Below, piece by piece: positions 5,661 through 46,563 of a stretch of DNA of 64,000 bases. Both the position numbers and the translations under genes were made by a program. The notes beneath the pieces are model-generated. The model had not been told where the DNA came from. It saw only the letters and a program-made list of their open reading frames with translations, and searched no databases. Position 1 is the stretch's first letter, and each line of letters opens with the position of its first letter. The DNA is from Paenibacillus sp. FSL H8-0548 (lineage in GTDB: Bacteria > Bacillota > Bacilli > Paenibacillales > Paenibacillaceae), in contig NZ_CP152049.1 of NCBI RefSeq assembly GCF_038630985.1, positions 2,003,501 through 2,067,500 of the forward strand, given 5' to 3'.

Positions 5661-5782
5661 ATGGACATGTGTAGAAAGCAGCAAGAATAACCTCATGATG
5701 ACGCCCAGTGGCGGAAAAAGGCCGCGTCTCATAGGGTGCTGTGAGGAGTACCGAGTGCAGCCCGGTGAGTGGGCGTGGATAA

Positions 5783-6005
5783 GCGGTATCGTGGCCAAAT
5801 AGATCTAAAATTTAGATCTAAGGAGGCCAAATCGCTCAAAAGGCAGAAATAGGTCTATAAATTAGACCTAATGCCGAGCGCAGGCGATCAAATGGGCTGT
5901 ATACGCGGTATCGTGGCCAAATAGATCTAAAATTTAGATCTAAAGGAGGCCAAATCGCTCAAAAGGCAGAAATAGGTCTATAAATTAGACCTAATGCCGA
6001 GCGCA
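5783..6005. repeat. Direct duplication of a 122-bp unit, each copy with two palindromes
   Basis: Copy 1 runs from 5783 to about 5882 and copy 2 from 5905 to about 6005, with a period of 122 bases. They are nearly identical; copy 2 has one extra A before AGGAGG. Each copy holds AGATCTAAAATTTAGATCT (palindromic with one unpaired base) and TAGGTCTA-TAAAT-TAGACCTA. The 607-base gap from 5598 to 6204 contains the AraC terminator, this duplication, a small GCAAAC/GTTTGC hairpin (6028-6043) and the psd terminator. No credible gene was seen. Confidence 0.9.
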
Positions 6006-6088
6006 AGCCATCAATCACTTGGTGGGAGCAAACGCTAGTTTGCAGGACTGTGTATGAAAGGCTGTCCCTTGTCCAATCGAACATAAGC

Positions 6089-37942: not shown

Positions 37943-38276
37943 GAAGGAATCAAGTCCCGCAGGGACTTGGTTCCTTCTCTTAAGGGGAATAGCGTCCCGC
38001 AGGGACAAATTCCTGCTCTTGAAAGGGAATGGGGTCCCGCCCCGGGACAATTCCTGCATAAGCAAGCGTAAAGCGTGTCCCGCAGGGACGAAAAGCGATC
38101 CAAGCTCAGTAGTCGCACAGGCACGTCGATTTATCTCCTACGTTAGTCCAATTCGCAGGTGTCCAGAGGGCGCAGCGCCTTGGGGTCCTCCCTTGGAAGG
38201 GAGGATTTAGGAGGGTTCGAAAACGCACTTAGGAGGACTTTGAGCTGAAAACCGGGGGGTCAAGGGGTCTCCCCTT
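37943..38276. repeat. G+C-rich palindrome block between icd and mdh
   Basis: Within the 425-base gap lie a 16-bp stem GAAGGAATCAAGTCCC (37943-37958) with its partner at 37962-37977; GTCCCGCAGGGAC at 37994-38006 and 38077-38089; GTCCCGCCCCGGGAC at 38034-38048; TCCTCCCTT/AAGGGAGGA at 38186-38205; and AAGGGG/CCCCTT at 38262-38276. The stretch is markedly G+C-richer than its neighbours. It resembles a nested palindromic intergenic repeat. Short reading frames inside it lack ribosome sites and are not called. Confidence 0.85.
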
Positions 38277-42408: not shown

Positions 42409-43365
42409 GTGCATGAATCATCGCCGCAAATTGTAACATTTGGTGAATCCATGGCTCTATTTATGCCTCAGGAGCATAAGTCGATCGAACGTGCTGCAAC
42501 GCTTGAAAAAACCTTCGGCGGAGCGGAAAGCAATGTCGCAATTGGACTTGCACGTCTAGGTTCCTCTGTAGGCTGGTTTGGTGCGCTTGGCAATGATCCG
42601 TTTGGTCAAAATATTTTGAAAACGCTGCGCGGCGAAGGCGTTGACGTATCACGCGCTCAGCTTAGCACGGATGCGCCAACCGGTATGATGTTCCGTGAGC
42701 ATGTGGCGGGCAAAATGGCAGTGCATTATTTCAGAAAGCATTCGGCTGCTAGTCGAATGCTGCCTGAGCAGCTTGATGAGAATTATATTCGTGGAGCTAA
42801 GCTGCTTCATGTAACCGGTATCACGGCAGCGCTTAGCGAGGATTGCCGCAGAACGCTTCGCCGTGCTGTCGATATTGCGAAGGAGGCAGGCGTACTTGTG
42901 AGCTTCGACCCCAATCTCCGCCTTAAGCTCTGGTCAATCGAGGAAGCTCGTGAAACGCTGCTGCCGCTTGCTGCGGATGCCGATTATTTCTTGCCGGGCT
43001 GGGACGAGCTTAAGCTATTGTATGATACGGATGACTATGAACTGGTCAAGAGCAAGCTCTCTGAGCTAAAAGCAATATCTATTATTAAAGGCGTAGGCGA
43101 TACAACTGTCGTATGGAAGGATGGACAGGAAGACAGCGTACCATTCTACCCAGCTGAGCAGGTTGTAGATACGGTAGGGGCTGGGGACGGCTTCTGTGCT
43201 GGATTCTTGGCAGGAATTATGAAGGGGTTAACCCCGGTGGAAGCTGTACGTCTAGCAAGCATTAACGGATCTCTTGTTGTACAGATGCGCGGAGACTGGG
43301 AAGCATTGCCTGAGTGGAGCGTTGTTGAGCATCGCTTGTCTGCCAAAGCGTGGGTGGAGCGCTGA
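42409..43365 (+). CDS. kdgK: 2-dehydro-3-deoxygluconokinase (PfkB family)
   Basis: 318 residues from a GTG start with GGGGGAG nine bases upstream. PfkB signatures: FGGAESNVAIGLARLG (about 36-51) and the catalytic DTVGAGDGFCAGFLAG (about 248-263) with the base Asp in GAGD. FDPNLRLKLW is typical of KDG kinases rather than fructokinases. It phosphorylates 2-keto-3-deoxygluconate, from uronic-acid breakdown. No kdgA aldolase is adjacent. It is followed after two bases by a DeoR-type gene, so the two are one unit. Confidence 0.85.
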   Translation: MHESSPQIVTFGESMALFMPQEHKSIERAATLEKTFGGAESNVAIGLARLGSSVGWFGALGNDPFGQNILKTLRGEGVDVSRAQLSTDAPTGMMFREHVAGKMAVHYFRKHSAASRMLPEQLDENYIRGAKLLHVTGITAALSEDCRRTLRRAVDIAKEAGVLVSFDPNLRLKLWSIEEARETLLPLAADADYFLPGWDELKLLYDTDDYELVKSKLSELKAISIIKGVGDTTVVWKDGQEDSVPFYPAEQVVDTVGAGDGFCAGFLAGIMKGLTPVEAVRLASINGSLVVQMRGDWEALPEWSVVEHRLSAKAWVER

Positions 43366-43367
43366 TA

Positions 43368-44150
43368 ATGACTGATGTAGTCGGTTCCAAGGGCCAGCGT
43401 CGCCGTGAGGCTGTTCTTCAACTGCTAAAGCAGCAGGGACGGGTGACGATTCCGGAAATGGTCGAGCGCTTCGGCTGTTCAGAAGCGACAGCGCGTCGTG
43501 ATTTAGAGCAGATGGAGTCCGACTATCCGGTTATACGTACAATTGGCGGTGCGCTGTATGATGGCATGAACTCTGCTCGGGAATTGCCATTTGCGGAGAA
43601 GGAAGGTTTGTCGATCTTGGAGAAGGAACGAATTGCCGAGCTGGCTGCGTCGTTAATTATTGAAGGCGACGTGATTGGGCTCTCGGGCGGTACGACCAAC
43701 TTCTTAATCGCAAAACTATTAAAAACCCGTAAAGGGATTACCGTTGTAACCAATGCGGTGAATATTGCAATGGAGCTTGGAGGCAGCGAGATTCAAGTTG
43801 TTGTTACCGGCGGTATCATGCGGCATAATAGCTTCGAGCTGTGCGGGCCTTTAAGTGAAGGTACGGTTGCCCATCTTCATATTGGGAAAATGTTTATCGG
43901 AGTCGACGGTATTTCTGCGACAGGCGGCATTACGACCTATTCGGAGCAAGAAGCACAAATCGCCAAAGCACTCATTAAAAGTTCGCAAGCGGCATATGCC
44001 GTATTCGATCATACCAAAACAGGAAAAACCTCACTCTTCTCCATTGCTGCTTTAACGGAGCTGAGCGGCGTTATTACAGACGTTCCGCTCACCGAGGAGC
44101 TTTCTTATGAAATGAAGCAGCATGGTATTTCTGTGCATGTGACGGGCTAG
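43368..44150 (+). CDS. DeoR/GlpR-family transcriptional regulator
   Basis: 260 residues from the ATG at 43368; a start at 43350 would overlap kdgK. N-terminal winged helix (about 5-60, RRREAVLQLLKQQGRVTIPEMVERFGCSEATARRDL) and a DeoRC sugar-phosphate-sensor domain (about 75-240, IGLSGGTTNFLIAKLL and FIGVDGISATGGITTY). It probably senses a sugar phosphate and represses kdgK or related genes. A terminator follows at 44223. Confidence 0.88.
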   Translation: MTDVVGSKGQRRREAVLQLLKQQGRVTIPEMVERFGCSEATARRDLEQMESDYPVIRTIGGALYDGMNSARELPFAEKEGLSILEKERIAELAASLIIEGDVIGLSGGTTNFLIAKLLKTRKGITVVTNAVNIAMELGGSEIQVVVTGGIMRHNSFELCGPLSEGTVAHLHIGKMFIGVDGISATGGITTYSEQEAQIAKALIKSSQAAYAVFDHTKTGKTSLFSIAALTELSGVITDVPLTEELSYEMKQHGISVHVTG

Positions 44151-44222
44151 CTATATCCAAAAGATGAGGCTATCCCAAAAGTGGTATGTTCGCTATTAGT
44201 GGAGAAAAGTAGAGTTTTAATC

Positions 44223-44268
44223 AAATGGCGGTGCAGGAATCTATTTCTGTACCGCCATTTTCCTTTGT
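44223..44268 (+). terminator. Terminator after the DeoR gene
   Basis: AAATGGCGGT (44223-44232) pairs with ACCGCCATTT (44251-44260), then TCCTTTGTTT. The inner GCAGGAA/TTCTGT extends the stem. Confidence 0.75.
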
Positions 44269-44330
44269 TTATCGATGGCTGCTTGCTTAAGCAAATTATA
44301 GGTAAGCGAAAGCCACCCGACCTCTAGACT

Positions 44331-45250
44331 TAATCCAGCCCATAAGCACCTATGTGTTCTTATCGCGCCCGAATGATCGCATCCCGCCACTAAATCCAGC
44401 CCATAAGCACCTATGTGTTCTTATCGCGCCCGAATGATCGCATCCCGCCACTAAATCCAGCCAATAAGCACACATAGGTGCTTATGGCCTAAGAAAGTAA
44501 GCTGTTTTGCTGCCATAAGCACCTATGTGGTCTTAACGCGCCCGAATGATCGCATTCCCGCCACTAAATCCAACCCATAAGCACACATAGGTGCTTATGG
44601 CCTAAGAAAGTAAGCTGTTTTGCTGCCATAAGCACCTATGTGGTCTTATCGCGCCCGAATGATCGCATTCCCGCCACCAAATCCAGCCCATAAGCACACA
44701 TAGGTGCTTATGGCCTAAGAAAGTAAGCTGTTTTGCTGCCATAAGCACCTATGTGTTCTTATCGCGCCCGAATGATCGTATCCCGCCACTAATTCAATCT
44801 CATAAGCACCTATGTGGTCTTATCGCGCCCGAATGATCGCATTCCCGCCACTAAATCCAGCCCATAAGCACCTATGTGTTCTTATCGCGCCCGAATGATC
44901 GCATCCCGCCACTAAATCCAGCCAATAAGCACACATAGGTGCTTATCGTTCAAGAAAGTAAGCTGTTTTGCTGACATAAGCACCTATGTGTTCTTATCGC
45001 GCCCGAATGACCGTAACCCGCTACTAAATCCAGCCCATAAGCACACATAGGTGCTTATCGTTCAAGAAAGTAAGCTGTTTTGCTGCCATAAGCACCTATG
45101 TGTTCTTATCGCGCCCGAATGACCGTAACCCGCTACTAAATCCAGCCCATAAGCACACATAGGTGCTTATCGCTCAAGAAAGTAAGCTGTTTTGCTGCCA
45201 TAAGCACCTATGTGTTCTTATCGCGCCCGAATGATCGCATCCCGCCACTA
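44331..45250. repeat. Interlaced two-unit repeat array, order AABABABA twice
   Basis: Ten A units (61-62 bp, head ATAAGCACCTATGTG, core CGCGCCCGAATGATCGCA) start at 44341, 44402, 44514, 44627, 44740, 44801, 44863, 44975, 45087 and 45199. Six B units (51 bp, head ATAAGCACACATAGGTGC, then AGAAAGTAAGCTGTTTTGC) start at 44463, 44576, 44689, 44924, 45036 and 45148. The order is AABABABA, then again AABABABA. Each B head contains the reverse complement of the A head, so every B-A step forms a hairpin of up to 18 bp (44471-44488 with 44512-44529). No reading frame is credible. It occupies most of the 1.2-kb gap between the DeoR gene and nagA. Confidence 0.95.
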
Positions 45251-45259
45251 ATTGGAACC

Positions 45260-45300
45260 AAAAAGAGGATGCCTAGCCAAATTATTGGCTAGACATCCTC
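45260..45300 (-). terminator. Terminator after nagA
   Basis: GAGGATG-C-CTAGCCAA (45265-45280) pairs with TTGGCTAG-A-CATCCTC (45285-45300) with one mismatch. On the minus strand five T follow (complement of 45260-45264). Confidence 0.85.
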
Positions 45301-45366
45301 GTCATATTTAATATGGAAAGTAGAAAGTAAAGTTTGTTTTATTGAAATGTCATAGGGATCGTCCAG

Positions 45367-46563
45367 CTATTGCTTCTGATTGTGATAAACAGAACGCCCC
45401 TGCACCCAAGTTTGCTGGATACGCAGCTGTGCATCTGTCCATACAAGATCGGCTTGCTTGCCGCAGATAATGGAGCCAGTACGGTCGTTAATGTCAAGCT
45501 GCTTCGCGGCATTGCCGCTCGCAAGGCGGCTCACCTCAGCAATGGTCATGTCTGTATTCTCAAGCATGAAGCGTACGGCACCAATCATCGTCAAGCAGCT
45601 GCCTGCCAAAGCATTGCCTTCAAGCAAACGTGCTTCGTTGTCCTTCATAATGACCGCTAAGCCGCCAAGGCTATACTCGCCGTCGGGCATGCCTGCCGCT
45701 GACATGGCATCGGTAATCAAAATAATCTTATCCGCGGGCTTGGCGGCGAGCAGCAGCCGTATCGCTCCTGGATGCACATGTATGCCATCAGCAATGAGCT
45801 CCGCTGCTATGCGTGAATCCGTAAGTACGGCGCCCAGGGCACCTGGCTCACGGTGATGCAGTCCCCGCATGGCGTTATAGGTGTGTACAGCCTGAGACAG
45901 ACCTGCATCTGCCGCAGCAATGATCTCGGCATATAAGGCGTCGGTATGGCCGCACGCCGTATTAATGCCCTGCTCTGCAAGCCAAGCGATCGTTTCGAGA
46001 GCACCCATCTTCTCAGGTGCAAGGGTTAGCTGTTTAATAAGGGAAGGCCACTTGGCCTGCCACTGCTTCATCCATTCGAGCTGCGGGTCAATAATGTGAT
46101 CGGGATTTTGTGCACCTGGCCACTTCTCGCTTATAAAAGGGCCTTCCAAATGTACACCGTACAAAGCAGTGTAAGGCATCTCGCTGCTGCGATAATGATC
46201 GACAGCACGCAGTACAGCTTCGATCGCCTCCTTGGAAGCGGTCATCGTTGTAGCCAGCATGCCGGTCGTGCCCTGTGAAGCATGGAACTTTGTAATCGTA
46301 TCAAAGCTATCGCTGCTTGCATCCATAAAGTCAGCGCCGAAGCCTCCATGCACATGAACGTCAATAAAACCAGGCAGCAGCCAGCCGCCACCGCCATCAA
46401 TAATCTGAAGACCGTCAGCAGACACGGGGGCAGTGTCCTTGTTGCCATCCGCAGCAACCTCTACTATTTTACCGTTTTGAACGACGACGCTGCCAGCAGC
46501 GACGCCATCCTCAAGTACGATATTGACATTATGAATGATCCAGCTAGTCGTGCCTTCCGCCAT
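45367..46563 (-). CDS. nagA: N-acetylglucosamine-6-phosphate deacetylase
   Basis: 398 residues of amidohydrolase fold. Metal and catalytic residues are seen in PGFIDVHVHGG (His pair near 69-71), HLEGPF (Glu near 136), GHTDA (His near 206), AVHTYNAM (His near 227) and ITDAMSAAG (catalytic Asp near 283). It removes acetate from GlcNAc-6-P, giving glucosamine-6-P for NagB. The ATG follows the nagB stop directly (TAAATG), so nagB-nagA is an operon, in reverse of the B. subtilis nagA-nagB order. Confidence 0.95.
   Translation of the reverse strand: MAEGTTSWIIHNVNIVLEDGVAAGSVVVQNGKIVEVAADGNKDTAPVSADGLQIIDGGGGWLLPGFIDVHVHGGFGADFMDASSDSFDTITKFHASQGTTGMLATTMTASKEAIEAVLRAVDHYRSSEMPYTALYGVHLEGPFISEKWPGAQNPDHIIDPQLEWMKQWQAKWPSLIKQLTLAPEKMGALETIAWLAEQGINTACGHTDALYAEIIAAADAGLSQAVHTYNAMRGLHHREPGALGAVLTDSRIAAELIADGIHVHPGAIRLLLAAKPADKIILITDAMSAAGMPDGEYSLGGLAVIMKDNEARLLEGNALAGSCLTMIGAVRFMLENTDMTIAEVSRLASGNAAKQLDINDRTGSIICGKQADLVWTDAQLRIQQTWVQGRSVYHNQKQ

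Follow-up and report, generated by a model that had tools for sequence, protein, structure and literature searches.

BIME-2 elements are built with two alternating linkers, and a REPIN is an inverted REP doublet. According to the parts of PMC2817692 drawn on here, BIME-2 and REP clusters consist of many regularly spaced extragenic palindromes in alternating orientations, present as doublets and as longer clusters, and the inter-REP segments of Stenotrophomonas vary substantially in length. The gyrase motif of E. coli shows a phased 10-bp G/C variation, and both BIME-2 elements and the regions downstream of highly transcribed operons are enriched in sites of this enzyme (passages of PMC6379681). 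In Bacillus, RemA may wrap DNA, since upstream of the eps promoter it covers a series of AT-rich 7-bp repeats, at least six in number and set at 3-bp intervals, and octamers of the LrpC class have been proposed to bind DNA in a nucleosome-like manner (both from portions of PMC8481266). In the open-access literature we found nothing resembling the class of arrays described below; it may be described in the subscription literature, which lay mostly outside the scope of the search.

The window, that is the whole stretch of 64,000 nucleotides of the soil bacterium Paenibacillus sp. FSL H8-0548 that was analysed (its chromosome is designated G000), carries such an array between two convergent genes. 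Its features are as follows, the units being delimited by script parsing.

43350 to 44150, forward strand: left neighbour, DeoR/AgaR-like regulator (best model AgaR, 181 bits, under the curated cut-off of 260)
44165 to 44335, forward strand: dispersed left-flank repeat, common to several other arrays of the same genome
44223 to 44260, forward strand: terminator-like site between left gene and array (17-pair stem, T-rich tail)
44342 to 45251, no strand: whole array, 16 units, AABABABA twice; the last 39-bp linker is incomplete and fades at about 45251
44342 to 44402, forward strand: unit A1, 22-bp head and 39-bp linker
44403 to 44463, forward strand: unit A2; the AA step of 61 bp is 6 turns
44464 to 44514, forward strand: unit B1, 22-bp head and 29-bp linker, 5 turns
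44515 to 44576, forward strand: unit A3, 62 bp
44577 to 44627, forward strand: unit B2
44628 to 44689, forward strand: unit A4, 62 bp
44690 to 44740, forward strand: unit B3
44741 to 44801, forward strand: unit A5, closing block 1
44802 to 44863, forward strand: unit A6, 62 bp, opening block 2
44864 to 44924, forward strand: unit A7
44925 to 44975, forward strand: unit B4
44976 to 45036, forward strand: unit A8
45037 to 45087, forward strand: unit B5
45088 to 45148, forward strand: unit A9
45149 to 45199, forward strand: unit B6
45200 to 45251, forward strand: unit A10, linker truncated
45265 to 45300, reverse strand: terminator-like site between right gene and array (16-pair stem, TTTTT tail)
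45367 to 46563, reverse strand: nagA, convergent right neighbour (TIGR00221, 335.7 bits, cut-off 225.65)

The order of the units is AABABABAAABABABA, with ten A units (61-62 bp, the last truncated) and six B units (51 bp), the first head starting at 44342; successive lengths are 61, 61, 51, 62, 51, 62, 51, 61, 62, 61, 51, 61, 51, 61 and 51 bp, and the final unit merges into the flank. The parsing thus reproduces the sixteen units and the doubled order given in a preliminary description of this DNA, and its block-specific B linkers were recovered as well, with GGCCTAAG found three times in block 1, and CGTTCAAG twice and CGCTCAAG once in block 2. Aligned with 12 gap columns, the two blocks agree at 94% of the positions compared (422 of 449). 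In the window, the reverse complement of an A head closely resembles a B head. Mononucleotide shuffling, with one shuffle for each of 25 sources, left no head at the threshold used. The array is bracketed by the two facing terminator-like sites, the third such site of the window being a head inside the array, and no promoter-like site was found at it against 2.9 expected.

The left-flank repeat is dispersed and terminator-like, with 13 matches in the genome; its part at 44223-44332 also matches four Paenibacillus replicons, the array part of the query being unmatched at the best place. In L152 and L153, two loci without any strict head, and by position probably also beside the array of L033, this repeat has an IS3-type element at roughly one common point, as if the element were targeting the repeat. 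Elsewhere in the window, two 123-bp tandem copies (5770-6014, 95% matching) carry ATCTAAAATTTAGAT-type palindromes, and a 40-bp repeat present in 2.6 copies (37954-38057) carries GTCCCGCAGGGAC.

Within the same chromosome, a 123-bp query taken from the array matched 113 times, and the strict head pattern, TAAGnnCn6GnnCTTA, occurs at 220 places in G000 (0 for the reversed-pattern control), each array being a row of such 22-bp near-palindromes. The loci read in G000, namely 24 stretches at matches of this query and two more, plus the window, contain 25 clusters of two or more heads, two of which, both in L041, may be one array, being separated by 1.35 kb that includes IS3-type genes. Stricter chaining gave 22 arrays of three or more heads; L026 and L044 have one head each, and no head was found in L036. 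Among the 120 strict heads beyond those first listed, 95 fall in the loci read, 11 in a sample of the terminus half and about 14 elsewhere. This sample, 59 stretches (1.18 Mb) at 2.62-4.68 Mb, around the terminus, added two arrays, fewer than elsewhere, which brings the chromosome to at least 27 clusters. Exclusion of arrays from the replication terminus was considered and set aside, as two arrays in the sampled 1.18 Mb indicate at most a weak depletion. The GC skew of G000 flips near 3.70 Mb, the gene at base 1 is presumably dnaA, and no replichore bias of array strands was seen by eye among the matches of the 123-bp query. The largest array read in G000 (L022, 2814-5299) has 45 heads in 2.5 kb with an unbroken 61/51 alternation; both genes flanking it match those of the P. 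paridis array L069, and the linkers have strongly diverged.

Two heads separated by a free gap of 20-50 were used as a pattern over the 84,980 species of genome_contigs, a set that may leave out the window's own genome. The 35 stretches matched come from only three genomes, namely those of Paenibacillus sp. FSL A5-0031 and P. paridis py1325 and one whose record carries the title Bacillus sp. FJAT-28004. Within the genus, the strict head occurs in 13 of 51 genomes, with 44-220 copies in five of them. The preliminary description had proposed a search for its units across Paenibacillaceae; with relaxed letters and a fixed 51-bp doublet (at most 3 mismatches), the class was indeed found in 29 of 394 genomes and 8 of 19 genera of the family (reversed control 0), and the AABABABA order proved not to be general. 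Doublets number 159 in G000, 111 in G300, 106 in G299, 102 in G047, 77 in G143, 73 in G298, 45 in G280, 23 in G151, 14 in G252 and at most 8 in the others, where single hits may be due to chance; some species have solely a 51-bp doublet. The inner letters of the palindrome differ by genome, being CA in G000, GC in G047, TG in G137, G001 and G359, and GG in G291. Twenty regions of relaxed-doublet genomes were read: the arrays of G047 and G291 have steps of 51 bp plus one of 102, and those of G137, G001, G359 and G151 have steps of 51 and 61 bp with few others (50, 112, 132), the linkers in all six being unlike those of G000. No cluster was found at the threshold used for these regions in L170 (G105) and L172 (G218), and no array in 13 sampled stretches (260 kb) of G143. 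The plasmids searched with the G047 array gave no match, and viral contigs were discarded as carriers, the free-gap pattern having given there five stretches at mixed distances, with no ruler.

The distance between heads is set with great regularity. Over the 24 loci and the window, the steps in G000 are 51 bp (117), 61 (110), 62 (3), 50 (2), and 64, 109 and 111 once each; that is, 227 of 235 within-array steps are exactly 51 or 61 bp. In the three named species (35 loci), the 299 steps below 200 bp comprise 51 (133), 61 (105), 112 (22), 62 (16) and 23 others, 238 of them being 51 or 61. At 10.2 bp per turn, 51, 61 and 112 bp correspond to 5, 6 and 11 helical turns. Alternation of 51 and 61 is the rule in G000, and the AA steps, seen in the window and in L039, are exceptional yet still measure six turns. 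The emphasis initially laid on AABABABA has to be moved, this order being a local variant and the step of 5 or 6 turns the constant feature. The same ruler persists across genera where the linkers are unrelated and the letters of the palindrome have changed. Rare steps of 41 and 71 bp, near 4 and 7 turns, were noted in L077 and L073 and are too few for testing.

To compare heads and linkers, 220 full units of 51 arrays from 75 loci were aligned in 112 gap-free columns, repeats of one array and units out of full register being left out. The head consensus across these arrays is TAAG..C..AT..G..CTTA, with no GTAG-type foot at the head in the unit consensus, and among 47 non-redundant consensuses the mean identity is 78% for the heads and 42% for the linkers. 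Units are homogenised within arrays. In the 24 arrays of four or more units, divergence reached 0.022 at the invariant head positions, 0.092 at the other head positions and 0.121 in the linkers, the invariant positions lying below the linkers in 24 of 24 arrays, in a set biased towards conservation because units with unrecognisable heads were left out. Similarly, the invariants diverged by 0-0.071 and the linkers by 0.206-0.631 in 15 orthologous array pairs, most of them recognised as orthologous by the two flanking genes and a few by a single one. The conserved cores of the preliminary description are therefore head cores under constraint.

In a Fourier analysis of the A/T profile over the 112-bp unit (35 consensuses), the strongest term was that at 10.18 bp, with a value of 157 compared to a maximum of 66 in 200 linker-only shuffles. 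In situ, the phase power at 10.18 bp was compared with the maximum of 60 linker shuffles per group; the ruler alone contributes power at this period, a contribution that the linker shuffles retain. This power was 0.127 versus 0.068 in G000 (22 arrays), 0.060 versus 0.027 in the named species (34 arrays), 0.063 versus 0.037 in low-copy members of the genus (4 arrays, spectrum peak 10.14) and 0.164 versus 0.102 in a third group (9 arrays). For G000, for the named species and for the third group, the maximum of the mean spectrum lies at 10.18 bp, and the A/T steps keep this period across heads and linkers alike. The pooled flanks of G000 and the named species gave 0.004 at 10.18 bp (n=92), the G000 arrays being about 30 times higher. 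The third group is made of eight arrays from six genomes of four other genera, with peaks all at 10.08-10.20, and of a ninth, L163 from the same-genus G151, which is without the 10.18 peak and peaks at 8.64. It should be noted that, because linkers within the genus share ancestry (mean identity 42%), the phase is tested independently only by the eight arrays of other genera. Using a wedge model, intrinsic curvature was not above that of the flanks in G000 (3.40 versus 3.46 degrees per turn) and in the named species (3.30 versus 3.49), and was above it in the third group (5.32 versus 2.80). Intrinsic curvature was rejected as an explanation, since it does not exceed the flanks in two of the three groups; with no excess in G000 and the named species, the phase fits DNA held by a protein better than freely bent DNA.

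Regarding the placement of the arrays, 51 of 62 clusters could be classified, 24 as convergent, 25 as tandem and 2 as divergent, with orthologous sites counted repeatedly. In G000, 12 of 24 clusters are convergent compared to 54 of 414 baseline gaps (p 3e-5), and 1 of 24 is divergent compared to 110 of 414 (p 0.014), the baseline being intergenic gaps of at least 100 bp, defined by a simple ORF caller, in the 57 array-free stretches of the terminus half; the one of the 25 G000 clusters that falls inside a predicted ORF was left out of this test. With a simple detector, a terminator-like site precedes the array at 39 of 65 facing gene ends (45 of 62 clusters) and none was detected at 26 of 65; such a site lies inside 33 of 90 array strands.

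The DeoR-like gene of 11 relatives was read with 1.5 kb on each side. Convergent nagA is present in 10 of 11, and no two-head match at 51 or 61 bp was found at any of these loci at the threshold used, which suggests that the nag-locus array was gained in the G000 lineage, this being simpler than loss in all 11. At a second locus, which we take to be a lut-type operon, each of the three named species has an array, always flanked by one and the same pair of genes, and the proteins of G276 there are 99-100% identical to those of P. paridis. At this site, with flanks 95-96% identical, nine heads are present in P. paridis (L071/L121 comparison) and two in G276, and no P. paridis stretch is more than 84% identical to the G276 doublet; array length would thus change quickly, unless the G276 draft has collapsed. 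A recurrent neighbour gene was sought as a candidate array-binding protein and the idea was dropped, as it yielded only orthologous neighbours and low-identity matches, some with AraC-type domains.

Sites, ruler, phase, constraint and placement were established computationally. The protein, the wrapping and the role of the arrays in supercoiling we infer as follows. That related bacteria keep the spacing and change the letters points to a scaffold of protein, bending or wrapping the DNA, more than to an RNA or a code. Most likely a dimeric sequence-specific protein binds at each 22-bp near-palindrome. With 5 or 6 turns of 10.2 bp (51 or 61 bp) from one site to the next, dimers bound there would all point to one side of the helix, and since the A/T steps of the linkers keep the 10.18-bp phase, the DNA between the sites would suit tight bending, looping or wrapping. 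Because they lie at gene ends, often past a terminator, the arrays are probably mostly untranscribed. Supercoil driven by transcription would collect at the gene ends where the arrays sit. There the arrays probably support a wrapped complex of DNA and protein, by which supercoil is pinned or buffered or adjacent units are kept apart. We give an even chance to the view that the arrays are a DNA-level architectural scaffold held by a dimeric protein, with the DNA looped or wrapped. The further proposal that they are dedicated nucleosome-like arrays, with dyads whose letters change by genus in co-evolution with a dimeric protein specific to the lineage while the ruler and the phased A/T steps stay fixed, and that they fix local topology from the sparsely transcribed space between terminators, is tentative and falls somewhat short of an even chance. 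LrpC and RemA would serve here as examples of wrapping proteins.

The arrays could also be a selfish or recombination element, in which a transposase or recombinase pairs two palindromes over a short in-phase loop, its activity spreads or expands the copies and the ruler reflects a synapsis constraint. We regard this as rather unlikely. The gain of the nag-locus array, with 10 of 11 relatives keeping the DeoR-nagA pair without a two-head match, would agree with such an element, as would the species with only a 51-bp doublet, the fast change from nine to two heads, and the left and right flank elements with IS-like ends that are common to several arrays (by eye, which showed no target duplication of MITE type). 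Quantisation of lengths at 10.2 bp also has a precedent in the internal eliminated sequences of Paramecium, for which a synapsis constraint has been proposed in the portion of PMC3464196 considered. However, the Y1 transposase PF01797 (RAYT), the sole transposase family covered, was found neither in G000 nor in any of the 13 array-bearing same-genus genomes searched (15 match the doublet, G119 and G284 being outside this search), and mobilisation by RAYT was rejected on this ground. Over all 25 genomes searched, PF01797 matched in G303, which has no doublet, and in G047 and G359, which have doublets and belong to other genera, with best matches of 133-139 aa. In addition, the heads are intact in orthologous arrays that stayed in place, and synapsis alone has no obvious need for phased A/T steps through both linkers.

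An assignment of the arrays to strong DNA gyrase sites, as the Firmicutes counterpart of E. coli BIME-2, appears unlikely. Here the phased A/T-G/C variation would let the DNA wrap gyrase at places past gene ends where positive supercoil gathers. The 10.18-bp phase does parallel the phased 10-bp G/C variation of the E. coli motif, and the position at gene ends recalls the enrichment of gyrase sites downstream of highly transcribed operons, as given in the same passages of PMC6379681. The near-invariant TAAG..C / G..CTTA with genus-specific inner letters suggests instead a sequence-specific partner. Moreover, the arrays are patchy (29 of 394 family genomes) though the enzyme is, to our knowledge, essentially universal in bacteria. 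Neither gyrase nor synapsis alone accounts for near-invariant genus-specific dyads together with phased linkers.

A hairpin or cruciform element, in RNA or in extruded DNA, is highly improbable. Competing hairpins had been put forward as a mechanism, and the predicted folds of the window are strong: as single-stranded DNA, the B head forms an 8-bp hairpin (-5.6 kcal/mol) and the 73-nt B-A step a long one (-22.1, z -6.8), the A head alone folding weakly (-1.7). From one genus to another the inner letters differ in both halves of the palindrome, as expected of a protein site with a dyad or of a hairpin alike. Yet pairing is not conserved within the genus. With 47 non-redundant array consensuses and a permutation stratified by clade, H1-H2 complementarity within the unit was 5.34 of 10 against 5.63 expected (p 0.98), H1 self-pairing was under expectation (1.98 of 5 against 2.28, p 1.0) and H2 self-pairing slightly above it (3.38 against 3.18, p 0.04). 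The near reverse-complementary A and B heads of the window would suggest one asymmetric motif in alternating orientation, while across arrays the complementarity does not exceed permutation. At pair 7:16 of H1, G-T mismatches (9 of 47) and A-C mismatches (8 of 47) are equally common, so that neither strand looks like RNA. Pair 6:17 of H1 was paired in 19% of all aligned units against 30% by clade permutation; H1 being asymmetric there beyond expectation, one of the two sites per unit seems polar. Hairpin covariation was rejected, the top mutual-information pairs mostly tracking the split between G000 and the named species, and so was identity with an RNA family: six array loci gave no Rfam match at the curated cut-off, and positions 43800-45800 of the window gave two miRNA hits far under it, which is in line with the initial view that no known repeat class is recognised. 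Finally, the window array lies between two terminator-like sites, and a ruler of 5 or 6 turns is not expected of an RNA.

Least probable of all is a neutral satellite arising from slippage and unequal exchange, for which homogenisation within arrays and copy numbers differing between close relatives would speak, but which is already contradicted by the divergence of heads versus linkers, unless drive acts through the heads, since heads and spacing are kept while orthologous linkers diverge by up to 63%. The observed phase, which is above every linker shuffle, also speaks against it.

Natural variation has in effect carried out a helical-twist experiment in which linkers became unrelated and palindromes were altered while whole-turn spacing at 10.2 bp was kept. 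For a bacterial chromosome, this is strong evidence at the sequence level that DNA is looped or wrapped. The arrays offer a concrete bait for finding the binding protein, and dedicated histone-like wrapped segments at operon ends can now be tested against gyrase docking arrays. If true, nucleosome-like arrays would represent a new class of bacterial chromosome architecture.

Compared with known systems, the arrays resemble CRISPR in their short near-palindromic repeats and regular spacing, and differ from it in that the spacers are not unique, the 29- and 39-bp linkers recurring within an array. Like REP and BIME of enterobacteria, Xanthomonas and Stenotrophomonas, the Paenibacillus heads are high-copy extragenic palindromes (220 strict heads in G000), but they are without the GTAG foot and, unlike the Stenotrophomonas REPs, stay 5 or 6 turns apart even where the sequences are unrelated. 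As with REPINs, some array-bearing species have just a doublet, 51 bp apart; by contrast, each Paenibacillus half is itself a near-dyad, the doublets chain into long arrays, and a RAYT partner was not found in the genus (13 array-bearing genomes searched). The arrays share with the strong gyrase sites (Mu SGS, BIME-2), as far as these are portrayed in the passages cited, a base composition phased at about 10 bp that favours wrapping, to which they add, in a comparison made on sequence alone, 22-bp dyads, near-invariant positions and genus-specific letters. RemA sites, in the portion of the source used above, are regulatory, lie upstream of promoters and show modest sequence conservation, whereas the Paenibacillus arrays are dispersed at gene ends and built of strict dyads.
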